NCBI GenBank assembly: GCA_021803035.1
Contig: JAJZME010000078.1
Span: 1-64,000, forward strand
Length of the DNA: 64,000 nt
DNA from: Acidobacteriota bacterium
Lineage (GTDB): Bacteria > Acidobacteriota > Terriglobia > Terriglobales > Acidobacteriaceae
Direction of reading: 5' to 3'
The position numbers and the translations under genes are program-made. Below, one piece after another: positions 5,582 to 24,602 of this stretch (position 1 is the stretch's first letter; each line of letters starts with the position of its first letter). Below the pieces are notes generated by a model. That model did not search any database. It was not told the origin of the DNA and worked only from the letters and a program-made list of their open reading frames with translations.

Positions 5582-7558
5582 GTGACGACAACGGCCTCCA
5601 GAGGCACCACTCTTGTTGACTTCCAAACCCGCTGGCCGGAGTTGGAGCTGCCCGAAGCCGTGCACGAGGTCCTGAGCGCTGCGCCCAAGGTGCAAACGCC
5701 GGAGACCCGGCTGGAATTGCTCGACTGGGCGCTGGGAAGGCCGTCTGGAGCGACGAATTGGCTGCTGGGCAATCGCGACGACCACGGCGAGCATGAGGTG
5801 ATCTTTCAGACGCCGGGCGTGGGGCGGATCATGGAGGCGGTGATCACCAAGGCGCGGAACGGGTTGGCCATCAACTTTCCCGACCCGGCGATGCGGCGGC
5901 GCGATCCGGATGCCATGGTGATCGGCGACAGACTGCCGACCGACAAGCTCACTTACGAACAACGCTTTGGCGAGGGATTTGAGAAGACGCGGCAGCAAAC
6001 GCTGGACTGGTTGAAGAACCAGGAACTGGTAGCGATGCCGTTTTACGCGGGAACCGACACGCTGGGGTACGGCAGCCTGCTGATTGTGCCCCTGCAGGCG
6101 GCGTTTTTTGCTGCGGCGCTGGCCGACCTGCAAGGCATGATCCCGCGCAGCCGCGTTCCGGAGGGGTTCAGCATCACGGGCGGCGTACTGTTTGTGGCTC
6201 CGCCATTCCGGCATACACACTTTGGAGGACGGCAGGTCGTGGTGCACGAGCGCCTGGGAACGCACCAGGAGGTGTGGGCGTACAACCTCTATCCGGGACC
6301 GAGCGCAAAAAAGGGCGTCTACTCCATGCTGCTGGACAAGGGCGAGCGCGAGGGCTGGACCACCAACCATTGCGCGGCCGTGGCCGTGGTTACGCCGTAT
6401 GAGAACCAGCTGATCCTGATGCACGAAGGCGCCAGCGGCGGCGGCAAGAGCGAGATGACCGAGCACATCCACCGCATGGAGGATGGGCGGCTGCTGATCG
6501 GGCGCAATGTGGTGACGCAGGAAGAGCGAACGCTGAATCTTCCCGAGGCCTGCCACCTGCGGCCCATCGCCGACGACATGGCCTGCGCGCACCCCAGCTA
6601 CCAAGGAAACTACAAGCGGCTGATGGTGGCCGATGCGGAGAATGGGTGGTTTGTGCGCGTGGACCATATTCATGCTTACGGCACGGCGCCGAATCTGGAG
6701 CGGCTGTGCATCGAGCCGCCAGAGCCGCTGATCTTCCTGAACCACTACACCGTGCCCGGCGGCACCTGCCTGACATGGGAACACGTGGAAGATGCGCCGG
6801 GAAAGCTGTGTCCCAATCCGCGCGTTATTTTGCCACGGCGGCTGCTGGAAGATGTTCTGGATGGGCCGCAGCGCGTGGATGTGCGCAGCTTTGGCGTGCG
6901 CTGCCCGCCGACGCATCGCGAAAGCCAGCTCTACGGCATCCTGGGCATGCTGCACGTGCTGAGCCCGGCGCTGGCATGGTTGTGGCGGCTGGTGGCTCCG
7001 CGCGGGCACGCCAATCCCAGCATCCAGACGCAAAAGAGCAAGGAGATGCAGTCGGAGGGCGTGGGATCGTATTGGGCGTTCGCCACGGGACGGCGCGTGG
7101 ACCAGGCCAACCTGCTGCTGCGCCAGATGGTGGAGACGCCGGATACGCGCTACGTGCTGCTGCCCAACCAGCACATCGGGGCGTGGAAGGTGGGATTCAT
7201 GGGCGAGTGGCTGGCGCGCGAGTACCTGGCCCGGCGCGGCAGCGCGCGCTTTGCCCGCGAGCAGGTGACCGAAGCGCTGTGCCCCTTGCTTGGCTATATT
7301 CCCAACCAGTTGCGCATCGAAGGATCGATGCTGCCCCGGGTTTTCCTGCAAGTCGAGGAACAGATCCAGGGAGGCATAGATGTGTACGAGGAAGGCGCAC
7401 GGCAGTGGCGCGAGTTCTTCGCACGCGAACTGAAGGCGTTTCTGGTGCCTGAGCTTGATCCGCTGGGAAGGCGGATCATTGAGGCATGTCTGGATGACGC
7501 GCACCAGGAAGACTATCGCCGCCTGATTCCGCACCCCATGTTCCGCGACGACGCGTGA
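5582..7558 (+). CDS. DUF4914-like protein with PEPCK-like P-loop
   Basis: 658-aa cytoplasmic protein with a GTG start and no signal peptide or membrane segment. At residues about 281-290 it carries EGASGGGKSEM, a glycine-rich phosphate-binding loop of the kind seen in PEP carboxykinase-like ATP-binding folds. Conserved-looking blocks around it include GVLFVAPPFRHTHFGG, HCAAVAVVTPYENQ, RPIADDMACAHPSYQGNY and FLNHYTVPGGTC. The overall size and this motif order match my recollection of the uncharacterised DUF4914 family, which I could not check. It stands alone between cca and the response regulator. A nucleotide-dependent carboxykinase or kinase activity is plausible but unproven. Confidence 0.6.
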   Translation: MTTTASRGTTLVDFQTRWPELELPEAVHEVLSAAPKVQTPETRLELLDWALGRPSGATNWLLGNRDDHGEHEVIFQTPGVGRIMEAVITKARNGLAINFPDPAMRRRDPDAMVIGDRLPTDKLTYEQRFGEGFEKTRQQTLDWLKNQELVAMPFYAGTDTLGYGSLLIVPLQAAFFAAALADLQGMIPRSRVPEGFSITGGVLFVAPPFRHTHFGGRQVVVHERLGTHQEVWAYNLYPGPSAKKGVYSMLLDKGEREGWTTNHCAAVAVVTPYENQLILMHEGASGGGKSEMTEHIHRMEDGRLLIGRNVVTQEERTLNLPEACHLRPIADDMACAHPSYQGNYKRLMVADAENGWFVRVDHIHAYGTAPNLERLCIEPPEPLIFLNHYTVPGGTCLTWEHVEDAPGKLCPNPRVILPRRLLEDVLDGPQRVDVRSFGVRCPPTHRESQLYGILGMLHVLSPALAWLWRLVAPRGHANPSIQTQKSKEMQSEGVGSYWAFATGRRVDQANLLLRQMVETPDTRYVLLPNQHIGAWKVGFMGEWLAREYLARRGSARFAREQVTEALCPLLGYIPNQLRIEGSMLPRVFLQVEEQIQGGIDVYEEGARQWREFFARELKAFLVPELDPLGRRIIEACLDDAHQEDYRRLIPHPMFRDDA

Positions 7559-7647: not shown

Positions 7648-8349
7648 ATGCGCGTACTTGTGGTGGAAGACGAGGAAAGGCTGGCGCAGAATATCGCCAC
7701 CATTCTGCGTGATAATGCCTTGTGCGCCGTGGACATTGCGCCCGATGGCGAAGAGGGGCTGTTTCTGGCCCGATCGAATCCCTATGACCTGCTGGTTCTG
7801 GACCTGATGCTGCCCAAGCTGACCGGCCTGCAGGTGCTCAAAAGCTACCGGGCCAGCGGAAAGAACTCTCCGGTGCTCATTCTGACCGCGCGGGATGAAA
7901 AGGAGATCGTGGTCAGGCTGCTGAATGCCGGAGCGGACGATTACCTGACCAAACCCTTCGACCTGGGAGAATTCGTTGCCCGCTGCAAGGCGCTGATGCG
8001 GCGCGGCAAAGGCGAGCCTTCCCCGGTTATCCAGGTGGGACCGCTGGAGATCAACACCAGCACCCGCCGCGTGCAGGTGAATGGCACGCGCATCGTACTC
8101 ACCGCGATGGAACATCGTGTGCTGGAGTATCTGGCGCTGCGGCGCGGGGCGCTGGTTTCCAAGATGGAGTTGCTGGAACACCTCTACGACTACAACTGGG
8201 AAAAGTTCGGCAACGTGATCGAGGTGTACATTTCCGGGCTGCGCCGCAAGATCGAGAGCGTGGCCGGAGAAAAGCTGATCCAGACGGTGCGGGGTCTTGG
8301 CTACGCGCTTCGCCTGGAGGACGAGCCTGTCACGAAGGATCGCGACTGA
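7648..8349 (+). CDS. OmpR/QseB-family response regulator
   Basis: 233-aa DNA-binding response regulator. The receiver domain has the acidic pocket (VVEDEE), the phosphoacceptor D52 in LLVLDLMLPK, the switch Thr in LILTARD and Lys in YLTKPFD. The C-terminal winged helix shows LTAMEHRVLEYLALRRG and the end motif VEVYISGLRRKI...TVRGLGYALRLE, as in OmpR/PhoB. No kinase gene follows it; the next gene is convergent. The nearest unpaired kinase is at 13689, and its type fits this regulator. AGGGTG lies 6 nt before the ATG. A TGGCAAG/CTTGCCA inverted repeat at 7568-7600 lies upstream and could be a terminator or an operator. Confidence 0.9.
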   Translation: MRVLVVEDEERLAQNIATILRDNALCAVDIAPDGEEGLFLARSNPYDLLVLDLMLPKLTGLQVLKSYRASGKNSPVLILTARDEKEIVVRLLNAGADDYLTKPFDLGEFVARCKALMRRGKGEPSPVIQVGPLEINTSTRRVQVNGTRIVLTAMEHRVLEYLALRRGALVSKMELLEHLYDYNWEKFGNVIEVYISGLRRKIESVAGEKLIQTVRGLGYALRLEDEPVTKDRD

Positions 8350-8416: not shown

Positions 8417-9715
8417 CTAGCCTTCATGAGCCGCCTGCTCAGAGGCAAGAACAGGCTTGCCTTCCGCGCCCTCCGCTAAGCCACGGAAGTCCTTGCCTCG
8501 CTTTTCCGGACCAAAGATGAACAGCAGGAGGAGCGTGACAATCACGACGGTTTCGAAAAGGGTCAGCGCCCAGGGATATCCCAGGTGGTCACGCAGCGCG
8601 TACTCCACCGTCGGCGAAGACGCCGCGATCAGCACCCCGAGCTGATAGACAAATCCCGGGAAAAGGCTGCGGATGGAGTCCGGAGACAACTCGGTGAGGT
8701 GCGCGGGGATGACTCCAAATGCGCCCTGCACACCGGCCTGCATCGCGAACGACGCGAGCACCAGGACTCCCAGGGAGGCGCCGAAGGCCCATGCGGGAAC
8801 AGACAGCAGGCACAAGACCATGGCGATAATCATGGAGCGGCGCCTGCCGACTCTGTCGGAGAGGTGGCCGAAGAACAAGGTTCCCAGGATGGCGCCCACG
8901 TTGTAGATGATAGGAATGCCGTACACCATCTTCATGCCCAGCACCGTCTTGCCCACGAGAGCGGGAATGGTGCGCAGGAAGTTGGGATAGAGATCCTGGC
9001 TGCCGTGGGAGAGCGCATTCATGGCCGCCATCAGCACCAGCGTATAGATGAACAGCTTCATGTTGGCAAACAGCGTACGCATGATCTCGCCATAGCCGGG
9101 CGAGTGCTGCATCTTCCACGAGTCGGACTCCGGAGCGAACAGCGTCAGGACGATAATGATGGCCATGACCGGGACTCCGGCCAGGAACATGATGTGCCAG
9201 CCGAACTGCGTCACCAGAACCTGCATGGCCAGGGCCGCCAGCAGATAGCCGATGGGATAACCGCCCTGCATGAATCCGGAGACGATGCCGCGAGACTTCT
9301 GCGGGCAGCTTTCCATGGCGTAGGATGCGCCGACTCCCCAATATCCGCCCATGCCGATGCCGTAAAGCGCGCGCGTCAGAAGGAAGAACCAGTAATTCGG
9401 CGCGTATCCGCTCAGCACGGTGAAGAGGGTGAAGAAGATCACGCAGGCTATCAGCGGGAGTTTGCGGCCGTAGCGGTCGGCCATGGCGCCGAAGAAGAAC
9501 GCGCCCACCGGGCGCAGGGCAAGAGTGACGGTCAGCGAGAAGACGATGGCCGCTTTGGAGACATGAAACGTCGTCGAAAGAGGAACGAAGAGAAAGACGA
9601 CAACAAAGAAATTGAACGCATCCAGAATCCAGCCAAGAATGGCTGCACTCACGGCAAATTGCCAGCGGGGCGTTTCGCTGTTATTGGGAAGCGACTCTGC
9701 GGAAAATGTTGGCAT
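8417..9715 (-). CDS. MFS transporter (sialate/carboxylate:H+ symporter type)
   Basis: 432-aa integral membrane carrier with about 12 predicted transmembrane helices. Both halves carry the MFS loop motif: GAMADRYGRKLPL between TM2 and TM3, and GHLSDRVGRRRSM in the second half. N-terminal features (AILGWILDAFNFFVVV) and GMGGYWGVGASYAMES resemble the sialate:H+ symporter group, which also includes lactate and other monocarboxylate carriers. It is convergent with the response regulator and divergent from the propeller/MmgE genes, sharing a 758-bp upstream region with them, so co-regulation is possible. The substrate is not determinable; a small organic acid would fit the MmgE/PrpD neighbour. Confidence 0.85.
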   Translation of the reverse strand: MPTFSAESLPNNSETPRWQFAVSAAILGWILDAFNFFVVVFLFVPLSTTFHVSKAAIVFSLTVTLALRPVGAFFFGAMADRYGRKLPLIACVIFFTLFTVLSGYAPNYWFFLLTRALYGIGMGGYWGVGASYAMESCPQKSRGIVSGFMQGGYPIGYLLAALAMQVLVTQFGWHIMFLAGVPVMAIIIVLTLFAPESDSWKMQHSPGYGEIMRTLFANMKLFIYTLVLMAAMNALSHGSQDLYPNFLRTIPALVGKTVLGMKMVYGIPIIYNVGAILGTLFFGHLSDRVGRRRSMIIAMVLCLLSVPAWAFGASLGVLVLASFAMQAGVQGAFGVIPAHLTELSPDSIRSLFPGFVYQLGVLIAASSPTVEYALRDHLGYPWALTLFETVVIVTLLLLFIFGPEKRGKDFRGLAEGAEGKPVLASEQAAHEG

Positions 9716-10473
9716 AGGCGGGGATGGCCTGTTTCGCCTTTACTACTCTTTAACCGTATTCCAAAAAGATTAGGATTTCCTTAAGCTGAGGGCAAGTATT
9801 TTTGCCTATGCTATAGACAACAAGGTCCCGAAAAGGTCGCAAGAAGTGCATTCCGCGCACGCGTCAAAGATCGCGGGGCAGGTTACCGCGATCTTCTTAT
9901 GGGTGCGCCAAGCCTCTACTTCGGGATTTTCCCCTGCATCGGCGCCCCGAATCTCCGATTTTCAATGCTCGCCCAATTCCGCACTAAGGCGCGGCCGGCC
10001 TGCAATACGCGGCGACTCTGAGGGCTGTCGATGTTGTTAGAACCGACAGAGGAATATTTTCGCTATTAAGGTTTGCTTAACATCCAGACTGTTACCGTCT
10101 TAGCCGTGGTAAACCTCCTGATCTTCAGAGTGGCGGTACTTAGTCATGCGCAGCTTTTGGAAGGAAATGCTTAGCGGGCCCAGGTGATCGCGCAAGCCAG
10201 CATCCTCTCGGGGCCGGTGGCCTGGCCGTCATGTTACGGCAATTCCGGCTCACGCGGACGCAGGCTTTCCCATCGACAACCAAGTGCTCATCAGATCAGG
10301 AAAGGAACACTGGACCTGGAGCCGACAAGAGCGGCCAGACTCAGGCGCAGGAAATCCAGTTCATCCGAAAACTGATTTCCGATGCGAAGACGAACAAACC
10401 CGCAAGAAGCCCGAAACCGCCGTTTCGCGCGGCGCGCGGTAAAGAGACGCAGTTCATTAAGGAGATATCCATC
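9716..10473. promoter_or_regulatory. Long divergent intergenic region with a 10-bp-arm inverted repeat
   Basis: 758 bp between the divergent MFS and beta-propeller genes. Frames in it (9846-10040, and the 5' extension from 10231) lack coding support. It holds a perfect inverted repeat at 9867-9895 with arms AAGATCGCGG and CCGCGATCTT, and AT-rich stretches near 9740-9780 and 10045-10085 where promoters could lie. Convincing -35/-10 pairs were not identified. Confidence 0.45.
9867..9895. repeat. Perfect inverted repeat, candidate operator or hairpin
   Basis: Arms AAGATCGCGG (9867-9876) and CCGCGATCTT (9886-9895) are exact reverse complements around a 9-nt spacer. No T-run follows on either strand, so a terminator is unlikely. 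Its position between two divergent genes suits a regulator binding site. Confidence 0.5.
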
Positions 10474-11949
10474 ATGAGGAGACCCATTCATCTTGCTGTA
10501 GCCCTGTCCGCCGCGATGCTGCTTGGCGCTGTCCTGGCGGTTCCGGCCAATGCGCAAACTCCCCGCAGTCAGGCGCCTCTGAAGTATGTCCGCACATACC
10601 AGCTCTTTCCCGGCATTCCGGGCCTGTTCGATCATCTTAATGTGGACGCCAAGGGACATCGTCTCTTCATAGCGGCTGAGCAGTACAAGGCGGTGCTGGT
10701 GATCGACACCCGGACCGGCAAGGTGATCCACCAGATTCGCGGCATCGAAAAGCCTCACTCCATCTTTTACCGGCCCAAGCGCAATCTTCTTTACATCACT
10801 GATGGGCTTGCTGGCGCGGTGAAGGTTTACAACGCGACTACGTATAAGCTGGAGCACGTCATTCCGCTGCTCAAAGACTCGGATCCGATGCTGTACGACC
10901 CGGCCACGCATTATCTGTACGTCGTGAACGGGGGAGGCGACGTGAACGAGCCGTACTCGATGATCAGCGTGATCAACTCCAACACCTTCAAAAAAATTGC
11001 GGACATCAAGGTGCAGGGCAAGACGCTGGAATCCATGGCCATCGATCCCAATCGCCCCTACCTGTATGTCAACGACCGCGTTTTGAACAAGGTTGTTGTC
11101 ATCAACCGGTACACGCGGAGGATCGTTGCCAATTGGCCGATTAGCGGAGCAACGACGAATGTCACGATGAAGCTGGATGTACTGCATCATCGTCTCTTTG
11201 TCGGCTGCGAAAGCGGAAGAATGGTGGTGCTGGACACCAACACCGGGAAGCAGGTTGCGTCATTCCCCATCCCGAAGGTGAACGACGATACCAGTTTCAA
11301 TCCCGCCACCGACCGCATTTATGCCTCGGGCGACGGCTATGTCAGTGTCTACCAGGAAGTCACACCCAATCAATACAGGCTGCTGGGCAATGTGCCTACC
11401 GGACACATGGGCAAGAACTCGGTGCTGGTTCCGCAGACCAACCGGCTGTACGTGGCCGTGCCGCAAGACGGCAATAAAGTTGCGCACATTATGGTGTTCA
11501 AAACTGAGGGATTGAAGCAGACTGCGGATGCCGCGGCCGCGGCGCGCCACTGGCCGGTCTCGGCGCCGAACGCAGAGCAACTGGTCATGAATACACTCGG
11601 CAGGTATCCGGTTCTGGACAAGCTCGGCCTGCAGGCCATACCGCCCGGCGGCAAACGGAGCTTGCTTATTGCCAACGGAAACATGGGAAAGATCGGAAAG
11701 GCTTCAACGCCTGGGGACCTCGCCGCTGTGCGCAGCGGGGCTCCCTATTGTCAGCCTGTGCCGGATAGAGCGATCTATAACATGAAGCTTGCCATGATTG
11801 ATGCTTCGGGCCGGAAGATCGGCATTCTGGTTATGGAGATTCCATTCTCAGGGGTGCCTGATTCAGCAGGCGCCGTGAAGCTGGCGGAAAGTGTGCGCAA
11901 GGAAATGTCCGCGCAGATTCCCAATCTGCAATGGCTCTTCAAGGGCTGA
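10474..11949 (+). CDS. Secreted YVTN/NHL-type beta-propeller with C-terminal Cache-like region
   Basis: 491-aa exported protein. A signal peptide (LAVALSAAMLLGAVLAVPANAQ) is followed by propeller repeats, with strands such as RLFIAAEQYKAVLVIDTRTG, HYLYVVNGGGD, YLYVNDRVLNKVVVINRYT and RLFVGCESGRMVVLDTNTG, typical of YVTN/NHL periplasmic propellers. After residue about 360 a separate C-terminal part (AAVRSGAPYCQPVPDRAIYN; LAMIDASGRKIGILVMEIPF; KEMSAQIPNLQWLF) resembles a small extracytoplasmic sensor or Cache-like fold; that assignment is tentative. AAGGAG 9 nt before the ATG at 10474 fixes the start. The MmgE/PrpD gene begins 65 bp downstream, suggesting an operon. It may bind or sense a ligand; no catalytic residues were recognised. 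Confidence 0.75.
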   Translation: MRRPIHLAVALSAAMLLGAVLAVPANAQTPRSQAPLKYVRTYQLFPGIPGLFDHLNVDAKGHRLFIAAEQYKAVLVIDTRTGKVIHQIRGIEKPHSIFYRPKRNLLYITDGLAGAVKVYNATTYKLEHVIPLLKDSDPMLYDPATHYLYVVNGGGDVNEPYSMISVINSNTFKKIADIKVQGKTLESMAIDPNRPYLYVNDRVLNKVVVINRYTRRIVANWPISGATTNVTMKLDVLHHRLFVGCESGRMVVLDTNTGKQVASFPIPKVNDDTSFNPATDRIYASGDGYVSVYQEVTPNQYRLLGNVPTGHMGKNSVLVPQTNRLYVAVPQDGNKVAHIMVFKTEGLKQTADAAAAARHWPVSAPNAEQLVMNTLGRYPVLDKLGLQAIPPGGKRSLLIANGNMGKIGKASTPGDLAAVRSGAPYCQPVPDRAIYNMKLAMIDASGRKIGILVMEIPFSGVPDSAGAVKLAESVRKEMSAQIPNLQWLFKG

Positions 11950-12014
11950 TGTATGTAGAATCGGGACATTTCCGGGCTGCCGCACCATCAGCCCGCTTCC
12001 CCAAAGGAGGGAGC

Positions 12015-13502
12015 GTGAATCAATCTTATGAAGAAATTTTCACCCGCCGCAATTTGCTGAAAGGTGCAGGAGCAATTGCGGCTTCAACAGTATTTGCCGG
12101 GAAGACCGCGCAGGCGGCGGAACAGACAGCGCCGCCCGCGGCCAATCCGGATATAACAGGCATACTTGCCAGCTACATGAGTAAAGCTAAAGATCGCGCA
12201 CTGCCAGCAATGGTCGAGGAGAAAGCAAAGGAGCACATTCTGGATACGATCGCTGCCATGGTGTCAGGCACCCATCTGCCACCCGGCGCACTGGGCGAGA
12301 AATTCGCAAAGTTTTATGGCGGAGAGCCCATTTCCACAGTCGTGGGCACCAACATGGCGATTGGCCCGATTGAGGCGGCGCTGGCAAATGGCGTGCGGGC
12401 ACAATCGGACGAAACCGACGACTCGAATGCGCCTTCGCACTCTCACCCCGGCTGCTCGACGGTGCCGGCAGCGCTTGCCCTGGGCGAGCAGTTCGGGATC
12501 TCGGGGCCGCATTTCATTCGCGCCGTGGCCCTCGGCTACGATGTGGGCACGCGCGTAACGATCACGCTGGGTGGGCTCAATTATCAAATGCGCACGCATC
12601 GCGATTGTCACAGCATGGTCAGCACATTCGCGGCCTGCGCCGCGGCCGCCTCAGCCGCTTCGCTCAGCACACAGCAGATGCGATGGGTGCTCGACTACGC
12701 CGCGCAGCAGGATTCGGGCATTGCGGCGTGGGAGCGGGACACGCACCACGTTGAAAAAGCCCTGACGTTCGGCGGATTTCCTGCCCGCAACGGAGTCTCC
12801 ACCGCGCTGCTGATTTATCACGGCGGCAGTGGAGTCAACAACATTTTCTTTGGCCCAAATAACTTCTTCGACGCGTTCAATCCGCAAGCGGATCCGGAGG
12901 GCCTGATCCATAAGCTGGGCGTGTTCTACGAAATCGCAAACACCAACATCAAGAAGTGGTCGGTCGGCTCGCCGGTGCAGGCGCCGCTGAATGCGCTGGA
13001 GTACATCATGAAGAAGCATCCCTTCAAGCTGGCGGACGTGAAGAGGGTGATTGTAACGGAGGCCACCGACGAAGCGATGACGGTGAACAACCGGGAAATG
13101 CCCGATATCTGCCTGCAATACCTTGTCGCTTTGATGCTGGTCAAAGGAACGGTTTCCTTTCATGATTCTCACGACCGGGCCCTCATGAGCGATCCGGCCA
13201 TTGTTGCGGCGCGCGCCAAGGTGGATCTGGTCGGCAGCGCGGCCATGCAGAAGCTCTATCCGCAACTGGTGGCCAATGTCGAGGTGGTGCTGAACGACGG
13301 GACGACATACAGCCACCGCGTGAACGCGGTGCTCGGCACGACCGCGAACCCGATGACCCATGAGCAGATTGCGGATAAGGCGCGCGACCTGATGACTCCG
13401 TTTCTGGGCTCTGCGCAGACGGAGCATTTGATCGACGCGATTTATCACCTGGAGAATGTGAGCGATATTCGGACGCTGCGTCCACTGCTGCAGACGACGT
13501 AA
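12015..13502 (+). CDS. MmgE/PrpD family protein with Tat-like leader
   Basis: 495-aa member of the MmgE/PrpD family, whose characterised members include 2-methylcitrate dehydratase and cis-aconitate decarboxylase. Core features are HILDTIAAMVSG, the loop QSDETDDSNAPSHSHPGCST, where the family has its conserved His/Asp-rich active-site segment, RAVALGYDVGTR, and DAEITHRHR-like late motifs such as YSHRVNAVLG. The GTG at 12015 lies 4 nt after AGGAGG, which decides the start. Unusually, residues about 10-35 form a twin-arginine-like leader (TRRNLLKGAGAIAASTVFAG, then an AQA site), predicting export, whereas PrpD enzymes are normally cytoplasmic. It follows the secreted propeller gene directly. 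The substrate is unknown. Confidence 0.82.
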   Translation: MNQSYEEIFTRRNLLKGAGAIAASTVFAGKTAQAAEQTAPPAANPDITGILASYMSKAKDRALPAMVEEKAKEHILDTIAAMVSGTHLPPGALGEKFAKFYGGEPISTVVGTNMAIGPIEAALANGVRAQSDETDDSNAPSHSHPGCSTVPAALALGEQFGISGPHFIRAVALGYDVGTRVTITLGGLNYQMRTHRDCHSMVSTFAACAAAASAASLSTQQMRWVLDYAAQQDSGIAAWERDTHHVEKALTFGGFPARNGVSTALLIYHGGSGVNNIFFGPNNFFDAFNPQADPEGLIHKLGVFYEIANTNIKKWSVGSPVQAPLNALEYIMKKHPFKLADVKRVIVTEATDEAMTVNNREMPDICLQYLVALMLVKGTVSFHDSHDRALMSDPAIVAARAKVDLVGSAAMQKLYPQLVANVEVVLNDGTTYSHRVNAVLGTTANPMTHEQIADKARDLMTPFLGSAQTEHLIDAIYHLENVSDIRTLRPLLQTT

Positions 13503-13688: not shown

Positions 13689-15161
13689 ATGCAGAAATTC
13701 TCCCTCAACAAACGCTTGATCATCGCGGTAGTGGTGTCGCAGCTTCTGCTGGCAGCCATCCTGGTGATTGTAGGCGCTTCGTTTTCAGGCCACTATATCA
13801 ACTCGGCGTTCGATGTGTATCTCACCGGGCGCGCACGCAGTGTTGCGGCGCTCGTCTATTACCGGGATGACGGCATTCCGGGACTGCTGTTCAATGCGGC
13901 CAAAGCGCCCCCGTCGCCGCACCACATTCACAAGGATTTCTACCTGGTAACGAGCAACCAGGGCCATTACAAGTGGTACGCGCCCGGCTTCAATCCTCGC
14001 ATCTTCGACGCGATTCCGCCGGGCGCGAAGTTCTGGGACTTCCATCTGAACGGCGCGGGGTACCGGGCGATCATTTTGCGCCACGTCGTCATTCTGGATA
14101 CGGAAGAGGGCGAACCGCGGCCGCTGCCCAAGCTCACCGTGATCTACGCCGCGCCTACCATGGACATTGAACACCAGATTGAAGGGCTGGCGGTAGCCAT
14201 GGGGCTGATGGGCGTGCTGGTGCTGATTCCGACTTTGCTGCTTGCAATCTGGAGCTTGCGGCGGGCACTGGTTCCACTCACTGCGCTGGCCTCCGCGGCG
14301 GGCGCAATTTCAGTCGATAGCTGGAAGTTCGAGCCGTCCGAGGAAGCCCGATCCACCGAAGAGCTGGAGCCGCTGATCGGAGCCATCCAGACGGTGCTGG
14401 CGGAGCTGGAAGCGGCCTTCACGCGGCAGCGGGAGTTTCTGGGCGATGCCGCGCACGAGTTGAAGACGTCGCTGGCCATTCTGAAATCGACTTTGCAGTC
14501 GTTGCTCAACAGGCCCCGCCGGCGGGAGGATTACGAGCGCGGCCTGGCAATGATGAGCGGGGACTGCGACCGGCTGGAACGGCTGCTGAACCGGATGCTG
14601 CAGACGGCGCGGGCGGAGCAGCGGATTGCGAAAGGACATCAGAGCGAACCGGAGCCGGTGGATGTGGCTTCAACCTGCGAGGGAGCCATTGCGCGGCTGG
14701 CACAGTTCGCGGCAGAGCGGCAGATCGGAATCGATTTCGCCTCAGACGGCGAGGCACTGGTGCGCGCCGAGCCCGCGGACCTGGAGCTGATATGGCTGAA
14801 CCTGCTGGAAAACGCCGTGCAGTACAGCCCGCGCGACTCGGTGGTTTCGATGAAGGTGGCGGCCAACAACGGTTCCGTGCTGGTGTCGGTTGAGGATCAT
14901 GGCTGCGGCATCGATGCCGACCATCTGCCGCATATTTTCAAGCGCTTTTACCGGGCCGATTCCTCGCGCGCGCGAGCGACGGGAGGGTTCGGGCTGGGAT
15001 TAGCCATCGCCAAGTCGCTGGTGGATTTTTATCGCGGGACGATTCACGTTGAAAGCGAGCCGGGGCGCGGCACGCAGATCACGGTTGAGTTCCCGGTTGA
15101 GAAAGACAACGCCGGCAAAAAGCAGGAATTGGGCGCGGCTTCGCGGCCGGATTTGTCCTGA
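13689..15161 (+). CDS. Sensor histidine kinase (QseC/TctE-like), not adjacent to a regulator
   Basis: 490-aa membrane kinase. TM1 is at residues about 9-32 (LIIAVVVSQLLLAAILVIVG), an extracytoplasmic sensor about 33-165, and TM2 about 170-195, followed by a HAMP-like linker. The HisKA helix contains the phosphoacceptor H256 in GDAAHELKTSLA. The ATPase domain shows the N box LLENAVQYSP, G1 DHGCGID, F FKRFYRAD and G2 GGFGLGLAIAK. No response regulator adjoins it; the nearest lone one is at 7648, 5.3 kb upstream in the same orientation. All catalytic boxes are intact. The signal is unknown, though its place next to the propeller/MmgE-PrpD genes suggests that metabolite. Confidence 0.9.
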   Translation: MQKFSLNKRLIIAVVVSQLLLAAILVIVGASFSGHYINSAFDVYLTGRARSVAALVYYRDDGIPGLLFNAAKAPPSPHHIHKDFYLVTSNQGHYKWYAPGFNPRIFDAIPPGAKFWDFHLNGAGYRAIILRHVVILDTEEGEPRPLPKLTVIYAAPTMDIEHQIEGLAVAMGLMGVLVLIPTLLLAIWSLRRALVPLTALASAAGAISVDSWKFEPSEEARSTEELEPLIGAIQTVLAELEAAFTRQREFLGDAAHELKTSLAILKSTLQSLLNRPRRREDYERGLAMMSGDCDRLERLLNRMLQTARAEQRIAKGHQSEPEPVDVASTCEGAIARLAQFAAERQIGIDFASDGEALVRAEPADLELIWLNLLENAVQYSPRDSVVSMKVAANNGSVLVSVEDHGCGIDADHLPHIFKRFYRADSSRARATGGFGLGLAIAKSLVDFYRGTIHVESEPGRGTQITVEFPVEKDNAGKKQELGAASRPDLS

Positions 15162-15198: not shown

Positions 15199-18100
15199 CT
15201 AAACATGCTGTGGCCGCGGCTGAGGGCGCACCAGGGTTGCGCCGAGCAGGCCCAGAATGATTCCGTAAAGCGTGGCTTCAATTGCGAAAGAGTGCAGCTT
15301 ACGCTCGGGGTTGAGAGGCAGTTCGAGGATTGTGGCCGCGCCGCCTGGCACGGCGCGGCCGCGCCCGATGAAGTTGGCGTCAGTCAGCACGCGTACCTCT
15401 CCGGTGCGAAGGTCCACACGCGGCGGAAGCGGAGCCGCATCGCGGAAGAGGTAGTCGTCGAGCAGGTAATCGCGCTCGATGGGCCACCACGTTTCCGGAT
15501 TGCGCAGCACCAACTCCGCAGCGCCGCCATCGGCGTAGCGCACGGTGATGGTTCCGTGGTTCATGTGGCTGGCCTGAGGCAGCGTGCTGCCCGCCATCAA
15601 CAGGTAGAGGGAGTGGGCGCGGCCATTGAGCGGGATTTCCATTCTGGACTGGTCCTGTTCCCAGCAGGATATAAAGCGGCAGTTCGGCGCGGTGGCTTCC
15701 GCGGGCGTGCGGAACGGCACACCAAAGGGAGTGCGCAGCATGCCGCCGGCAGCGCGCAGGCCCGCGTCGTCGATCGTGGGCAGCGTATTAAAGTTGGCCC
15801 ATCCGCCGATTCCCTGCTCCGGAATGGCGAGCGAACAGTAGGGCGAACGCGGCGCAACATAGGAACGGCGAAAGATTGCGGTGATGTTTTCGTTGAGCCA
15901 TGGCTGCAGGTTGAGCGGCTCTGGATGCAGGTCCTGCGGAACGCGGGTGACGATGCTCGCAGGCTGCACTTGCCCTTTGGCTGCGAAGGAAATGGGCAGA
16001 GTCCAACGGCAATCGTGTTCATGCACGCGGGCAAAGACGGTGTGATGGCCGGCAGTGACCGCGCGGCCGTGGCGGAGGCAGCCTTGCGGATCATCGATAT
16101 TGCTGAGAGTCACCCCCGCGGGCCATTCGATGGCTTCTTCGAGCAGGTAAGTACGGTACTCCGGCACTGCGGTTGGAACAGCGCCACGCCAGTCGAGCTG
16201 TACGTCCCAGGCGGCAGCAACGGGAAGATGAATGAGAACAGCCGGATTGCCTACGGCCTCCGCATCGAAGGCGACAGGCACAACGGAGCCACCGGCGCGC
16301 ACGGTGGGCAGCGTGGTGGTGCGCGCAGGCAGAACCAGATGCAGAGCGACCGGCCTGGGTAAGCGCGAGATAACCTTGAGCTGCTCGTGCACGCCTTCGG
16401 CAGTCTGCTCACGCTGCCATTGCAGCGAGAGATCGGGATGATCGAGTGAGGCATGGTCCCACTCCGACGGGAAGCCGGGCCGAACGGTGAGCACGCCGTG
16501 CAACACGTCTGGCTGTATGCCGTAGAGGCCCTCAATCAATGCCCGCGAAGTGATGCCGATGGGGTCGCCAAAGTCGCGCTGTGCCTCCTGGCGATGATCG
16601 TCGAGTTGCGAGGACATGTGGAAGTTGCCGGGACAGAGTCCCTGATACATGGAGTCAAGCAGATTGCCTTTGAGCAGACAGAATGCCTCATCGGCCAGGC
16701 CAGCCTGCCACAAGGCGAGCGCAGTGGCCGTATTTTCAGCCAGCACCAGCAGATTCAGCGACCACTCATAAGGAAGCCAGTTGGAGCAGGAGAGCAGATA
16801 CCAGCCGCCTTGCGGAACGCCCGGGCCGTGGATAGGCACAGGGCGCAGCGCATGAAGCCGCTCAGTGGCCATCTGCCAGGCCTGGCGGCGGTTCGGGACC
16901 GCGGAATCGATGCTCTGATAGACGGTCCAGACAGCAGGCGCGGTGTAGACGGTTTGCCGCGTGAGAATATCTTTTGCTTCGGCGAAGGCTCCTTGTTGCT
17001 GTTGCCAGAGGAGCTGGTTCATCGCTTCGAGAATCAATTGGGCTTCATCTTCGAACGGCGTGGGGTCTTCGCCAAGCATCCGCGCAAGCTGAGCGGCGGC
17101 CCGATGGGAATAGTAGTTATAGGCGCTGGAGTGCGCCGCGCCGCCGCCGTTGTATTGCAGGTTGTCGCTGGCCCAGATGCACGCATAGGCCTCGTAGAGC
17201 GGAAGCTGCCGGCCATCGGCGGCGGTGAACGTGCGGCGGAAGAGGCGGCGCTCCCACGCCAGATGCAGGACAAACGCGGGCCACACCTGGCGGGCAAATT
17301 CGAGATCACCCGTCCAGCGCAGATGGCGCAGAAAACCGTCGAAGAACACCAAGTTCATGTCGTAGTGGTTATTCGACAGGTCGCCGGAGCTGTGCAGCAG
17401 GTGCTCGTGCCGCGTGAGATGCGTGCCGGGATCGGCGGGGCCGGTAGCGGGGCTTTCGGTGTCAACCGGCGAGGTGTTCTGGCGCGCGATCCAGTGGCGA
17501 AGGTTCTGGCGCATGCGCGCATGATCGCCGAAGTCATCAAGCGCGTAGGGACCGCGCCAGCCGACAAGCGGCACGCGCCACGCGACGGCACCATGCATCA
17601 GGCAGCCCAGCCGGTCGTCCCAGAGCGCATCGGCGGCGATTGCAAGCGCGGGCGCGGAGAGATTCACGTAAGGATCGGGCGTATCAAACCGCACGGACGA
17701 CGCAATGGCGGCCACCTGCCTGCTGCGCGCGGCAAAGGCCGTTGCGGCATTAAAGGCGGGAGGTTGCGCATCGGGCGATGCAAGTCGATCCAGGGTAATG
17801 AAGAACGGCTCGCTGCGATCGAGCGGCAAAGCGCCGGTAAGGACAGGCAAGCTGCCGGCGGTGGTGCGGCGCAGTTCGGCAGGCGTCTTGTACCAGGCGC
17901 GTCCGTCGGCGGTACGCAGCGTGGAGCCGGCCGGAAAGTTCAAGAAAAGATCCGCGGCGGGGCTGCGCAGGCGAGCCGTGGCGCCGTTGATTTCGTAATG
18001 GTTGTGGGCGCACTCTTCGGGGCGAACCTGGAAGAACTCGGACACCGGTTCCACTTCGCAGCCAATATCGCCGTTGCGCTGGCCCTTGCGTCCGCTCACG

Positions 18101-18669
18101 CCGCCGAACGCGCAGACAAGCATGACCGATGCAGGCACGCCGCGGGCTTCGGCCCGGACCAGAATGCCTGAGCCTTCGCCTCTCGTCAGCAGCTCCAGGT
18201 GAAGCGCGCCGTCGCCGAGCAGTGGATCGCGGATTTCATAGAGCATCCGGCCCGGCCGGTAGCGGGCGACGACTTCAGCGGTCTGCGAGAGCCATTTCGA
18301 TTCCGCAGGACTGGCAAGCCCGAGACGAAGATTGCCGCCGTGTCCGGGAAGATAAAGCGAGAACTCCGGCAGATCGCCAGCATCGACGCGAAAGGCATTG
18401 TTGGGACCGTAGATGGGCCGATTGAAATACTGCTTGCCATTGCGGATGAGGAAGCTGTCCGGTTCCGGCGTGTAGCGCAGCGGGCGGGCGGTGTTGGAAA
18501 CAAGCAGCGGGTGAACTTTGCCGGTGATGACTTTGGGCGCGGCGCGCCTGGACTGGGGCAGTGCGGGGTGCTCCTGAGCCATGAGGCGCGGCAACCGCAC
18601 CGTCGAGAGCGCCGCCGCGGCAGCGCCCTCGATCAGGAATTCGCGGCGTGTTGAATCGAAGATGGTCAT
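15199..18669 (-). CDS. Very large secreted DUF4450-type protein (glycosidase-like architecture)
   Basis: 1156-aa exported protein. The ATG whose complement is 18667-18669 begins MTIFDSTRREFLIEG, a Tat-like leader (RREFLIEGAAAAAL). The central part (residues about 340-730) reads like an (alpha/alpha)6-barrel carbohydrate-active enzyme: SNNHYDMNLVFFDGFLRHL, then YEAYACIWASDNLQYNGGGA, LSCSNWLPYEWSLNLL and GDPIGITSRALIEGLYGIQP, with beta-rich flanks. I place it in the DUF4450 group from memory; members are uncharacterised. The C-terminus has a single hydrophobic stretch (ATLYGIILGLLGATLV). It is convergent with the kinase gene and lies 118 bp downstream of another large secreted protein, probably the same transcription unit, suggesting joint polysaccharide or glycoside processing. 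Confidence 0.65.
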   Translation of the reverse strand: MTIFDSTRREFLIEGAAAAALSTVRLPRLMAQEHPALPQSRRAAPKVITGKVHPLLVSNTARPLRYTPEPDSFLIRNGKQYFNRPIYGPNNAFRVDAGDLPEFSLYLPGHGGNLRLGLASPAESKWLSQTAEVVARYRPGRMLYEIRDPLLGDGALHLELLTRGEGSGILVRAEARGVPASVMLVCAFGGVSGRKGQRNGDIGCEVEPVSEFFQVRPEECAHNHYEINGATARLRSPAADLFLNFPAGSTLRTADGRAWYKTPAELRRTTAGSLPVLTGALPLDRSEPFFITLDRLASPDAQPPAFNAATAFAARSRQVAAIASSVRFDTPDPYVNLSAPALAIAADALWDDRLGCLMHGAVAWRVPLVGWRGPYALDDFGDHARMRQNLRHWIARQNTSPVDTESPATGPADPGTHLTRHEHLLHSSGDLSNNHYDMNLVFFDGFLRHLRWTGDLEFARQVWPAFVLHLAWERRLFRRTFTAADGRQLPLYEAYACIWASDNLQYNGGGAAHSSAYNYYSHRAAAQLARMLGEDPTPFEDEAQLILEAMNQLLWQQQQGAFAEAKDILTRQTVYTAPAVWTVYQSIDSAVPNRRQAWQMATERLHALRPVPIHGPGVPQGGWYLLSCSNWLPYEWSLNLLVLAENTATALALWQAGLADEAFCLLKGNLLDSMYQGLCPGNFHMSSQLDDHRQEAQRDFGDPIGITSRALIEGLYGIQPDVLHGVLTVRPGFPSEWDHASLDHPDLSLQWQREQTAEGVHEQLKVISRLPRPVALHLVLPARTTTLPTVRAGGSVVPVAFDAEAVGNPAVLIHLPVAAAWDVQLDWRGAVPTAVPEYRTYLLEEAIEWPAGVTLSNIDDPQGCLRHGRAVTAGHHTVFARVHEHDCRWTLPISFAAKGQVQPASIVTRVPQDLHPEPLNLQPWLNENITAIFRRSYVAPRSPYCSLAIPEQGIGGWANFNTLPTIDDAGLRAAGGMLRTPFGVPFRTPAEATAPNCRFISCWEQDQSRMEIPLNGRAHSLYLLMAGSTLPQASHMNHGTITVRYADGGAAELVLRNPETWWPIERDYLLDDYLFRDAAPLPPRVDLRTGEVRVLTDANFIGRGRAVPGGAATILELPLNPERKLHSFAIEATLYGIILGLLGATLVRPQPRPQHV

Positions 18670-18787
18670 GAAGGCGTACCCCCGGCCTCGTGAACTTGAG
18701 CGCATCGAAGCTTCTGGAGCCAGTCTATGAGCAGGACTGGCAAGATGTCGCGCACCACTTCATTGCTCCGCCCACGTCATCGCGCAA

Positions 18788-20935
18788 TCATTGAGCGCTG
18801 ATCTGGACGATAGCCTCGCGCGATTTTGCGGGCGACACCTGCGCATTGAACATGTGCGTGGCCTGGTCATAGCTCACGCCTGCCAGCGTGCCGGAGAGAG
18901 CCTTCACGACCGGACGCCGGGACGCATATCCGGAAATCGTCAGCGCCGACTTCCGGCTTGCGAAGCGGATGGAAGCGGTGAGCGACTGGCCGTTTTGCCG
19001 CAGGGAACTGACGCGCGCCCTGCCCAGCGGGGTAATCTGCGCCGTATCGCCCAAGAGCGCAATGCCACCGCTGGTGATGGGTGAAAGCACCTCATAGGCC
19101 CAGCCGTCTTTGAACTCCATGTGCACATTGCCACCCACTGGAATGGGTTGTCCCTGATGCGTGACCCAGTTATAGGCGAAGACCGGGCCGGAGATGCCCA
19201 GCTCACGCAGCGGAACGCTTGTTTGCGCGCCGGAGCTTTGCCGCGGATAGGAGAAGACGTAGTGGACCTGCAGCTTGCCGAAGCGGGTTGTTGCCGATGC
19301 CACCATGGGCGCCTGTTCGCCCTCGGCGTCGCTCCGGTAAACCGCGTCGATGGGCAGCAGCGAGGTATCGGGCTTGACGATTACGCCGTCCGTTCGCTCG
19401 ACGGCCAGCAGGTTCTTCACATCGATGTTGCCGATGGCGTCTCCGACGCCGACCGGCCCGGCCGACAAGGTTGCAATCACCAGATTGCCCAGGTCATGGC
19501 TAAAGGACGCGTCGGTCCACGGCCACAGGCCCACCGCGCTGGCCAGGCGCGAGTCGTAGAGGAATGAATCCCACCTGCTGCGCGCAAAACCATCGTCACT
19601 GGGGCGAATCATCTGCACATTGGGATAGTGCGTGCTTGCCATGTAGTCGCCGGGCAGCGGCATGCAGTACATAATGCTGATGCCTTCGGCGGCCATGGCC
19701 TTCGACATGTTGCCAAGAAACAATGCGGGATCGGTCAGATTGGCGGCGGTTTGCGCATTGCGGTTGAGCCAGTCCTGCTCATAGGTCACCACGCCTGCCT
19801 GGTGCAGATAATGCGCGGTCTGCTGCCAGAAGCGGGGGTCGATCACGACATTGCCCGACATTTTGAACTCGTGACGATAGGGGCTGGCCGGCGCCACCCA
19901 GCGGGCATGCGTCACCAGGGGCAACCCGAGATCGAGATGAAAGTTGGCAAGTCCTTGCGGGAAGAGCTTCTTGTCGGCGCGATATTCGTCTTCGCCCCAT
20001 GCGATTGTGGAACCGCCCGCATTCCAGCGTGACTGCGGGCCCTTGGGATAGAACCAGCTATCCAACTGCATGTAGCCGAGGGCTACTCCAAGCTTCCTAT
20101 ATGCACCACGCACGGCCAGCAGAGTTCCGCGATAGCCAAGTTGCGGTTCAAACCTGTAGTAGTAAGTCGTCTTGTTGTCAGTCCAATAGCCAAGCCTGGC
20201 CAGAGTTACATCGGCATTGTTCGCAGGTCTCTGCTTTGCGCCCAGCGCCAGCAGAGCCGATCCCCATTTGCCAAAAACGCTGTTGATGCCGGTTCCGGCA
20301 GCGATAAGCGTGCTATGCACGAAACCAGCCGGCATCTGTTTGATGGCGGGATCGATGCCGCTGGTAGCCACGCCGTCCGGCTGGTCTTCCATGTCGGAGA
20401 CAAGGAAGTGATCGGCCGGCGAGATCACCATCGCGTGGCCCTGCCTATCGAAGAGACACCACGGGCCCTCCGGTCCAAGCTTTCCAAATTCATAGTAGCC
20501 AAAGGCCCTTTTCTGGTAGGAAAAGCGGAACGCTCCCTGCGGCAGGCTTTGGAAGGCTGGGAATGGCAGAGCGTTTTGACCCGCGCTCTTCCACACATCC
20601 CGGAAGAGGACCAGAGGCCGGACATCGTAGACGCGGATCTCGGCTATCCGCATTCCATTGTCAAAGGAGGCGCTGATCTGATGGTAGGCGCCGATTTTGT
20701 CGTTGCCCGCGGTGGAGTGCAGATCGCCTGCGTCTCCGGGCAGCTTGCCATCCAGCTTCCACCCACTGGCCGGAAAATCCAGCTCGTAGGTGCCATTGGC
20801 GCGGATGACTGCGCGCAATGCCTCATTCTTTGCGGCGTACTGTTTGGCATTCTGCGCGTGCGCGCGAATCGCAAAGGTGGTCATTCCCACCAAAGCCGCG
20901 ATCACCCATGAGCAAGTAGAGGGTGCATATTTCAT
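18788..20935 (-). CDS. Secreted TIM-barrel-like glycoside hydrolase candidate
   Basis: 715-aa secreted protein. The ATG at 20935 follows GGGAG by 8 nt, which is better than the TTG one codon earlier. The signal peptide (WVIAALVGMTTFAIRAHAQ) is clear. The middle region has a series resembling barrel strands of alpha-galactosidase/raffinose-synthase-like enzymes: LGYMQLDSWFYPKGP, ANFHLDLGLPLVTHARWV, GVVTYEQDWLNRN, GISIMYCMPLPGDYMA and SAVGLWPWTDASF; Asp residues in these strands are candidate catalytic acids. The beta-rich C-terminus fits a barrel-capping domain. Family assignment is uncertain and no exact GH family is claimed. It lies upstream of the DUF4450-type gene on the same strand. Confidence 0.55.
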   Translation of the reverse strand: MKYAPSTCSWVIAALVGMTTFAIRAHAQNAKQYAAKNEALRAVIRANGTYELDFPASGWKLDGKLPGDAGDLHSTAGNDKIGAYHQISASFDNGMRIAEIRVYDVRPLVLFRDVWKSAGQNALPFPAFQSLPQGAFRFSYQKRAFGYYEFGKLGPEGPWCLFDRQGHAMVISPADHFLVSDMEDQPDGVATSGIDPAIKQMPAGFVHSTLIAAGTGINSVFGKWGSALLALGAKQRPANNADVTLARLGYWTDNKTTYYYRFEPQLGYRGTLLAVRGAYRKLGVALGYMQLDSWFYPKGPQSRWNAGGSTIAWGEDEYRADKKLFPQGLANFHLDLGLPLVTHARWVAPASPYRHEFKMSGNVVIDPRFWQQTAHYLHQAGVVTYEQDWLNRNAQTAANLTDPALFLGNMSKAMAAEGISIMYCMPLPGDYMASTHYPNVQMIRPSDDGFARSRWDSFLYDSRLASAVGLWPWTDASFSHDLGNLVIATLSAGPVGVGDAIGNIDVKNLLAVERTDGVIVKPDTSLLPIDAVYRSDAEGEQAPMVASATTRFGKLQVHYVFSYPRQSSGAQTSVPLRELGISGPVFAYNWVTHQGQPIPVGGNVHMEFKDGWAYEVLSPITSGGIALLGDTAQITPLGRARVSSLRQNGQSLTASIRFASRKSALTISGYASRRPVVKALSGTLAGVSYDQATHMFNAQVSPAKSREAIVQISAQ

Positions 20936-21309
20936 CAAGCGATCTCCCTGAAAATCAATTCAACGCGTGCCGGCGCGACGCCGGGCAATGAAAGGCTTTA
21001 AGCCTGGTGGCTTGAAATTCGATCTCCAAATCGATTTACGCAGACACCATTGCGCCTGAAACTGAGGCAGAGAACATCTTATGCCATCGCATGGCGCGCA
21101 AGCATCCTTCGATGACTGAGGACGGTCTCAATTTTTGCGCTGACGGTGCGGACAGTGGGTGTGCGCCTGCGGAATGAGTTGGAGCCGCCGCGGAGTTGGA
21201 GCAACGCGGCGAACGAAAAGGCGGACTTCAGAAAGCCCGAGCGCACAATCGCGCAGGCCGGCGCGCGGGAGCATTCTCACGGGGAATGTGGAGGCTCGGC
21301 GCTTCGCCT
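20936..21309. other. Intergenic region with no supported gene
   Basis: 374 bp upstream of the TIM-barrel gene and downstream of the duplicated-module gene, both on the minus strand. It should contain the promoter of the glycosidase-like pair, but no convincing -35/-10 pair was identified. A short AAGGCTTTAAGCCT-type inverted repeat lies near 20992-21006. Confidence 0.4.
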
Positions 21310-23924: not shown

Positions 23925-24602
23925 ATGCGCCTCCTTCTGGTGGAAGACGAAATTGATATCCAGAGTTTCCTGCGGCGCTCGCTCGAGGAAACAGGATATG
24001 AAGTTGAAGTCGCGGGGGATGGCAAAACCGCCGAGCGGCTCGCTATCGACACACCCTTCGACATTCTGATCGTTGATCTTGGGCTCCCCGATCAGGATGG
24101 AATCAGTTTGATTCTGCGCCTGCGCCAGTTGGGTCTGAGCGCACCGGTGCTGATTTTATCGGCGCGCAGGTCAGTGGACGACCGGGTACGCGGGCTCGAA
24201 CAAGGTGGAGACGACTATCTGACCAAGCCCTTTGCGCTGGCCGAACTGCTGGCGCGGCTGCGCAACCTGCTCAAGCGCAACAGCCCGGCGACCAAAGAGC
24301 CCACCCGGCTGCATGTGCAGGATTTGGAGTTGGATCTTCTGCGGCGGGAAGCAATGCGGGGCGGGCGCGTGCTGCAACTTACGCAGCAGGAGTTTGTCCT
24401 GCTTGAGTATTTGTGCCGGAATGCAGGGCGCGTGGTCACCCGTTCGATGATTCTCGACGAAGTCTGGGGCATGCGCATTCAGCCCGACACCAACGTGGTG
24501 GACGTCCATATTTACCGCCTGCGCGGCAAGGTGGACGGCGCCGGACAACAGCCCCTGATTCGTACCATGCGCGGGGTAGGCTATGTCCTCAGAGACCGGT
24601 AA
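23925..24602 (+). CDS. OmpR/PhoB-family response regulator
   Basis: 225-aa regulator. The receiver has VEDEI, the phosphoacceptor D51 in ILIVDLGLPD, LILSARRS and YLTKPFALAELLAR. The winged-helix effector has LQLTQQEFVLLEYLCRNAG and VVDVHIYRLRGKVDG...TMRGVGYVLRDR, close to the CusR/CopR/QseB type. Its last 20 bp overlap the start of the kinase gene, so the two are translationally coupled and almost certainly partners. No clear Shine-Dalgarno precedes the ATG. Confidence 0.92.
   Translation: MRLLLVEDEIDIQSFLRRSLEETGYEVEVAGDGKTAERLAIDTPFDILIVDLGLPDQDGISLILRLRQLGLSAPVLILSARRSVDDRVRGLEQGGDDYLTKPFALAELLARLRNLLKRNSPATKEPTRLHVQDLELDLLRREAMRGGRVLQLTQQEFVLLEYLCRNAGRVVTRSMILDEVWGMRIQPDTNVVDVHIYRLRGKVDGAGQQPLIRTMRGVGYVLRDR

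Follow-up and report, generated by a model that had tools for sequence, protein, structure and literature searches.

The locus, the leader and the enzyme fold

The window analysed here, a stretch of DNA from an Acidobacteriota genome (3.86 Mb in 83 contigs), covers the opening 64 kb of contig C50. It encodes, in this order, a response regulator, a major facilitator superfamily (MFS) carrier, a predicted secreted beta-propeller protein, an MmgE/PrpD-fold enzyme with a twin-arginine leader, and a sensor kinase. The enzyme, which is likely exported, and the genes that accompany it are the subject of this report. Identities in the list are to a paralogous locus of the same genome, described below.

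7648-8349 (+): OmpR-type response regulator (Response_reg 94.3 bits, Trans_reg_C 72.8 bits; 46% identity)
8417-9715 (-): MFS carrier (TIGR00891 308.3 bits; 56% identity)
9716-10473 (no strand): divergent intergenic region between the MFS and propeller genes, searched for repeats
10474-11949 (+): predicted secreted YncE-type beta-propeller protein, 491 aa (profile scores, model, family linkage)
11572-11946 (+): C-terminal 125-aa domain of the propeller protein, possibly Cache-like (weak similarity, low model confidence)
12015-13502 (+): MmgE/PrpD-fold enzyme, predicted to be exported, 495 aa, GTG start (Shine-Dalgarno sequence at 12003-12011; Pfam; model)
12015-12116 (+): twin-arginine leader, residues 1-34, with a cleavage-like site between AQA and A (conservation of R11 and R12)
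13689-15161 (+): sensor histidine kinase (HATPase_c 100.4 bits, HisKA 38.1 bits; 28% identity, partial)

The mechanical open reading frame of the enzyme gene opens at 11931. The start used here, GTG 12015, was picked by eye; it is preceded by a good Shine-Dalgarno sequence (aaaggaggg) and yields the 495-aa product. Measured from this GTG, the gap to the propeller stop is 65 bp, as an earlier note on this DNA had given it, and the divergent carrier of that note is likewise present, the MFS gene lying on the minus strand and the propeller gene on the plus strand. TIGR00891, an SHS (sialate:H+ symport) model, is the top-scoring MFS model for the carrier despite a cut-off of 552.9 bits that the carrier misses. 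A search of 9716-10473 for operator repeats found no direct repeats and only distant, imperfect inverted pairs. The sensor part of the kinase is 2CSK_N-like (22.5 bits, slightly under the cut-off of 23.2).

Membership of the enzyme in the MmgE/PrpD superfamily follows from Pfam (MmgE_PrpD_N 140 bits, MmgE_PrpD_C 93.5 bits; cut-offs 32.1) together with the fold. The PrpD equivalog models are missed widely (TIGR02330, 21.7 vs 458 bits; NF042438, 41.1 vs 950), and the genome encodes a separate prpD, without a leader, in a prp-like cluster elsewhere whose genes were named by eye. On these two grounds a role in ordinary propionate metabolism was considered and dropped.

The MmgE/PrpD enzymes characterised so far are known to work intracellularly. 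The window protein carries TRRNLLKGAGAIAASTVFAG at residues 10-29, followed by the AQA cleavage-like site, assigned by eye. In an alignment of 79 rows, where one split gene supplies two rows, R11 and R12 are kept in all 76 rows that cover them. Left out of this count are L075, which meets a contig end, the second half of the split gene L074, and L055, whose open frame starts past the leader while its homology extends to residue 9 through an in-frame TGA. By a rule of our own rather than a trained predictor (RR, then at least 10 of 13 residues from AVLIFMWCGST), the leader is present in 76 of 76 testable rows and in 86 of 87 rows of a second, overlapping set, which comes from a separate genome scan and shares some contigs with the first; its single exception is L253, a Hyphomicrobiaceae metagenome-assembled genome (MAG). 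This conservation spans phyla and, within the subfamily, equals that of the active site. The split gene L074 (9066-10608, minus strand) consists of two overlapping frames, reflecting a frameshift or a sequencing error.

In the AlphaFold2 model of the enzyme (predicted local distance difference test score, pLDDT, 90.4), residues 1-40 are mostly of low confidence and the first core helix begins at residue 47, placing the leader outside the fold. TatC is encoded in the genome. A distant relative on a Pacificitalea plasmid (L257) keeps the DETDD and IKKW motifs and lacks the leader, so export seems to be a mark of the subfamily. That plasmid locus (1976-14856) has five MmgE/PrpD genes in all, the leaderless relative being one of them, together with genes for a tripartite tricarboxylate transporter and an annotated tartrate dehydrogenase. 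As far as sequence can tell, the window enzyme is very likely exported. The twin-arginine-like leader proposed in the earlier note has thus held up well, and the leaderless homologues it asked after come down to L253, the interrupted L055 and the distant L257 relative.

The closest PDB fold to the model is iminodisuccinate (IDS) epimerase, with a template modelling (TM) score, normalised to the target, of 0.85-0.86. Aconitate decarboxylases and Bacillus subtilis IRG1 come next (0.78-0.83), and 2-methylcitrate dehydratases are more distant (0.64-0.74, partial chains left out). IDS epimerase is also the nearest PDB sequence, at 23% identity over the structural alignment. E133, D135, D136, H144, K248 and K313 are identical in 78 of 78 covering rows and H199 is kept in 74; the equivalence of H144, the catalytic residue, and of K248 was checked against the IDS epimerase alignment, and other active-site equivalences were assigned by eye. 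R241, D242 and H245 are nearly invariant in the family, and the aligned IDS epimerase and aconitate decarboxylase sequences offer no equivalent of them. According to the accessible part of PMC12290011, known superfamily members act on 1,4-dicarboxylates, diacids with a C4 backbone, with proton chemistry at C2. Because of the fold and the conserved carboxylate-binding and catalytic residues, a dicarboxylate is a well-founded prediction for the substrate, and it is probably of the C4 type.

Gene neighbourhoods and tartrate enzymes

Relatives of the enzyme are widespread. Matches to the enzyme turned up in three overlapping genome samples: 6 of 247 genomes of the phylum (E <= 1e-40), 38 of 250 of the class and 22 of 200 of the family (both at E <= 1e-60). 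When one genome was scanned for each species, at least 536 stretches encoding a relative came to light, and the best 79 loci include Acidobacteria, seven Bradyrhizobium isolates, Acidisphaera and several proteobacterial MAGs.

The neighbourhood survey covered 69 regions of up to ~20 kb around family members from across the phylum, with neighbours counted within 6 kb, and 20 arbitrarily placed control regions from 7 of the same genomes, all of the window's family. Most neighbour classes were taken from the first 30 regions, D-tartrate dehydratase (TarD) and one MFS type from later ones, and contig ends cause undercounts. A propeller occurs in 31 regions (0 of 20 controls, p=5e-5), a carrier of any of four types in 28 (0 of 20, p=2e-4; 26 without two weak MFS matches of 24% in L136 and L137), two-component genes in 18 (0 of 20, p=0.006), and a tartrate enzyme, tartrate dehydrogenase (TTC) or TarD, in 13 (0 of 20, p=0.03; 12 regions and p=0.04 without a 31% tartrate dehydrogenase match in L140). 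For the propeller and the carrier, chance neighbourhood is ruled out by the control regions. Three classes are not significantly enriched: a Cache-like protein (10 of 69, one being the window's fused domain, vs 0 of 20, p=0.067), oxalate decarboxylase (5 of 69 vs 0 of 20, p=0.27) and a cytochrome-propeller type (11 of 78 copies vs 1 of 20). Counting per copy (78 copies, the split gene once) gives the same picture. Representative neighbours score above the curated cut-offs of their profiles (tartrate dehydrogenase 551 vs 470, DctA 625 vs 513, oxalate decarboxylase family 479 vs 254; one representative each).

The paralogous locus, L013 on contig C13, encodes a cytochrome c, a second enzyme with the twin-arginine (Tat) leader, a propeller, a response regulator, a histidine kinase and an MFS carrier; its enzyme is ~59% and its propeller 42% identical to those of the window, and the other identities are listed above. 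On the tree the two enzyme copies pair as sisters with a support of 0.973, and their clade has the propeller, the regulator and the MFS carrier. The earlier note had asked whether carrier, propeller and enzyme genes stay together across genomes. A neighbourhood is conserved; the exact trio with the window's MFS type occurs in only 6 of 69 regions (the window, L013, L057, L060, L061 and L062), all of one clade, and in 38 of the 69 the 6-kb range around the enzyme lacks a propeller. Outside that clade the carrier, where present, is DctA or another MFS protein.

An oxalate decarboxylase-family gene lies beside the enzyme in L050-L052, L116 and L122, with an RR-type leader in the copy read, and other neighbours are diverse (amidohydrolase-like, phosphodiesterase-like and hydrolase genes). 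A second MmgE/PrpD group, ~24-25% identical to the window's and with RR-type leaders, was seen in L014 (7544-9070, minus strand), L050 (5776-7329), L052 (6399-7952) and L054 (3376-5004); in L050 and L052 one oxalate decarboxylase-family gene stands between members of the two groups.

The link to tartrate comes mostly from the acidobacterial genus g214. Typical gene orders there are those of two loci. L112 reads tartrate dehydrogenase, MFS carrier, Tat-PrpD enzyme, D-tartrate dehydratase, Tat-PrpD enzyme, DctA, and L118 reads Tat-PrpD enzyme, dehydratase, Tat-PrpD enzyme, propeller. The dehydratase homologue of L118 matches PDB 2DW7 (Bll6730) with 605 bits and finds its best-scoring chain in 4KEM (648 bits), which bears a general deposit name, and a neighbour in Bradyrhizobium L238 matches Bll6730 over its full length with 866 bits. 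We take Bll6730 to be the D-tartrate dehydratase of Bradyrhizobium japonicum. Dehydratase homologues of this kind are neighbours of the enzyme among Acidobacteria and also at five of the seven Bradyrhizobium loci. The B. japonicum enzyme is named in the part of PMC10079672 that we could consult. Of 20 loci whose titles place them outside the Acidobacteria, 8 have a tartrate enzyme within 6 kb: the five Bradyrhizobium loci just named and three contigs from MAGs, which are possibly misbinned. On the tree, members with tartrate-enzyme neighbours fall in five places, two of which are a tandem pair sharing loci.

At the genome level, a tartrate enzyme (TTC or TarD) is encoded in 14 of 22 family genomes with the exported enzyme vs 31 of 178 without it (p=1e-5, kinship uncorrected). 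The TarD-type dehydratase itself is present in just 7 of the 200 family genomes, and four genomes of the family encode it but not the exported enzyme, so that the two are not obligately paired. The window's genome encodes, on contig C31, a TarD that is 85.5% identical to a Bradyrhizobium copy and stands beside a DctA-type carrier. In this pair (L169, 8935-11422, minus strand) the two genes are 10 bp apart on the same strand, likely as an operon. The seven other sampled genomes of the window's genus have no TarD, tartrate dehydrogenase or exported enzyme at the thresholds used.

The propeller protein begins with MRRPIHLAVALSAAMLLGAVLAVPANAQ, Sec-like by eye, and is modelled confidently at about residues 36-344, where its best PDB matches are E. 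coli YncE. It scores 92.5 bits against the YncE equivalog NF052280, under the cut-off of 400, so that the fold alone agrees. The last 125 residues are modelled with low confidence and have no second copy in the window's own genome. The same domain recurs in the family, where 26 of 200 genomes encode it, fused to propellers in some cases and forming a stand-alone protein in others, the latter mostly of 156-201 aa with secretion-like N-termini (by eye), and in L056, L059, L061 and L062 the stand-alone protein is encoded less than 2 kb from the exported enzyme. Searches of the domain against Pfam, PDB-profile and NCBIfam collections returned weak matches only: the window's domain has no Pfam match, 3 of 8 stand-alone relatives match sCache_3_2 (E 0.0017-0.046, all under the cut-off), and DcuS sensor chains reach E 0.4, ranked below unrelated chance matches. 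From its sequence the domain is possibly Cache-like, which, if right, would fit the idea of the earlier note that the propeller senses or binds.

Elsewhere in the window, a full-length DUF4914 protein (5582-7558, plus strand, 940 bits) is encoded directly upstream of the response regulator. Next to the kinase lie genes for a 1168-aa protein with DUF4450 and a TRREFL-type N-terminus (15199-18705, minus strand) and for a large 716-aa protein with no Pfam match (18788-20938, minus strand), and a further response regulator and kinase pair occupies 23925-26058 (plus strand).

A possible uptake module and its alternatives

Leader conservation, the fold, most of the dicarboxylate-binding residues, the neighbourhood and the co-occurrence with tartrate catabolism are directly supported. 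From them we infer export itself, the substrate, the reaction, the role of the propeller and the direction of transport. On balance we lean towards an exported MmgE/PrpD enzyme that serves, as an isomerase, in a regulated uptake module for tartrate-type hydroxylated C4-dicarboxylic acids. Under this scenario, the acid would enter the periplasm through a TonB receptor or a porin, and the kinase and regulator, to judge from their position, would sense it and switch the genes on. The enzyme would fold in the cytoplasm, be exported by the Tat route, and take and return the C2 proton of the dicarboxylate, thereby converting a stereoisomer into one that carriers and cytoplasmic enzymes can use. The propeller protein, given its linkage and its fused, possibly Cache-like domain, may bind the acid or dock the enzyme. 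The MFS carrier, or DctA or another MFS protein near other members, where linkage is observed, would import the product, and the cytoplasmic tartrate enzymes that co-occur may then complete its breakdown. The earlier note had proposed an extracytoplasmic organic-acid system. Its export and its organic-acid theme stand, the latter through the paralogous locus, DctA, the tartrate enzymes near some relatives and the possibly Cache-like domain fused to the propeller; its scheme of modifying outside, sensing and importing is carried over here as conjecture.

Several observations weigh against this proposal. At a putative dicarboxylate-binding His position the window protein has Q130, where 75 of 79 rows have H and 3 have Q. 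Y190 is aligned to Tyr145 of IDS epimerase; of the 79 rows, 30 have Tyr at this position, 26 have Phe and 17 a gap, in a part where the alignment is uncertain. Both IDS epimerase and methylsuccinate isomerase work through His and Tyr, according to the accessible text of PMC12290011. Y190 was first taken as support for a two-base epimerase of this kind and no longer serves as proof of one, as the residue is not conserved in the family alignment; because the second-base Tyr varies, such a mechanism is unlikely to be general. The generic Tat model TIGR01409 gives 14.3 bits, under its cut-off of 16.7, and the leader is judged real on its conservation despite this. TonB receptors are not enriched (32 of 69 vs 7 of 20, p=0.26); an identity-filtered count (29 of 69 vs 1 of 20) was not used as evidence because the filter favours the regions that supplied its references. 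Of the 69 regions, 26 lack all three of propeller, carrier and tartrate enzyme in the 6-kb range. All neighbourhood p values are optimistic, since the classes came from part of the loci that were then counted, the controls from one family, and kinship was left uncorrected. In particular, 9 of the 12 firm tartrate-enzyme regions are from genus g214 (the rest are L069, L072 and L073), and the p value for tartrate therefore does not represent 12 independent events. Finally, the clade of the window and L013 has no adjacent tartrate enzyme, and the window's own link to tartrate is drawn from other clades and from a different contig of its genome. Tartrate specifically as the substrate of the window copy is a tentative assignment, somewhat short of an even chance. 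The choice of an isomerase over a lyase or dehydratase is evenly poised, and the reaction of the enzyme is a guess, as the key catalytic tyrosine varies in the family.

One alternative concerns the substrate. The enzyme may be exported and act on some other acid or conjugate, such as N-substituted aspartates or hydroxy-acid esters, with tartrate genes nearby only through the clustering of organic-acid genes. The diversity of the neighbours, the concentration of tartrate enzymes in one genus and their absence beside the window's clade would all fit, as would the nearest solved relative, whose substrate is iminodisuccinate in the part of PMC7347537 available to us. The genome-wide co-occurrence, and the adjacency at five places on the tree, of which the tandem pair accounts for two and Bradyrhizobium is one, make this rather unlikely. 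Similarly doubtful is the idea that the propeller serves some general purpose as a secreted scaffold or as a binding protein, without a specific tie to the enzyme. YncE-like propellers do occur at four more places in the genome beyond the window and the paralogous locus, and the 38 regions without a nearby propeller agree with it. Against this, both exported MmgE/PrpD copies of the genome directly adjoin a propeller, the controls hold no propeller of the same type in 20 and a cytochrome-propeller in 1 of 20, and the extra domain of the propeller occurs elsewhere as a separate protein near the enzyme.

Less likely again is a lyase or dehydratase, likewise exported to the periplasm, that would remove water or CO2 from a tricarboxylate or dicarboxylate such as citrate, methylcitrate, aconitate or tartrate, in the manner of PrpD or cis-aconitate decarboxylase, with the product imported. 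The shared superfamily, the conserved carboxylate-binding set, the variable tyrosine and the oxalate decarboxylase-family genes beside some members speak for it; the PrpD equivalog scores lie far under their cut-offs, and IDS epimerase is nearer in both fold and sequence than either PrpD or aconitate decarboxylase, though by a small margin over the decarboxylases. That the leader is nonfunctional and the enzyme an ordinary cytoplasmic MmgE/PrpD protein, as the subthreshold Tat score and the identical DETDD and IKKW motifs of the leaderless plasmid relative might suggest, is very improbable, since RR and the hydrophobic stretch, needless for a cytoplasmic enzyme, are kept in all testable rows of the first set and all but one of the second, across phyla.

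A bolder form of the uptake module, unlikely as it stands, would make the family an extracytoplasmic tartrate epimerase that interconverts L-, meso- and D-tartrate, so that any soil isomer could be imported and passed to TarD and tartrate dehydrogenase. The propeller would be a ligand-sensing partner, and the whole would form an acidobacterial module that senses, converts and imports, to which the arrangements in Bradyrhizobium would be related. If this were true, the enzyme would be a candidate gene for EC 5.1.2.5, to which, to our knowledge, no gene has been assigned. The EC number is named in the accessible part of PMC8358386. More broadly, an exported branch, widespread and with a near-universal leader, would shift organic-acid stereochemistry to the periplasm, offer a testable function for many proteins annotated merely as MmgE/PrpD family protein, and open the use of tartrate and similar plant acids by soil bacteria to genetic study.

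Comparison with known systems

The proposed system would place a known enzyme fold in an export-linked organic-acid module. No description of an exported MmgE/PrpD system was found in the literature searched, with most subscription journals outside its coverage and some queries poorly worded, and the same searches returned no paper on MmgE and tartrate together. For MmgE/PrpD and twin-arginine they returned, among others, PMC10924467, in the visible part of which the match is a gene list in a figure legend on an unrelated topic.

Among characterised enzymes, IDS epimerase (PDB 2HP0/2HP3) is closest in fold and PDB sequence, with the catalytic His and the Lys aligned and Tyr145 corresponding to Y190. 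It differs in its low identity of 23%, in its Tyr, which is variable in the window's family, and in lacking counterparts of R241, D242 and H245. (S)-(R)-Methylsuccinate isomerase (Msi) shares the MmgE/PrpD fold and C2 epimerisation of a diacid with a C4 backbone, as far as the accessible text of PMC12290011 describes it. Its His-x-x-Glu motif (H88/E91 in the same partial source) may correspond to position 130 and E133 of the window protein, which were equated by spacing alone. Unlike the window enzyme, Msi belongs to an itaconate and methylsuccinate degradation cluster with CoA-ester enzymes, and the consulted part of that source mentions neither a leader nor a propeller.

The PrpD/MmgE 2-methylcitrate dehydratases share superfamily and fold with the window enzyme; they differ in the missed equivalog cut-offs, in the lower TM scores of 0.64-0.74, and in that the genome has its own leaderless prpD. 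The known enzymes of the tartrate pathway are cytoplasmic, and no exported MmgE/PrpD step in tartrate catabolism was found in the literature searched. The genes of this pathway, TarD (Bll6730) and TTC, adjoin the exported enzyme in several clades, and TarD is present in the window's genome. E. coli YncE (PDB 3VGZ) resembles the window propeller in its secreted propeller fold (target TM 0.82); at 19% identity it differs from the window protein, which adds a C-terminal, possibly Cache-like domain and a tie to the enzyme locus.

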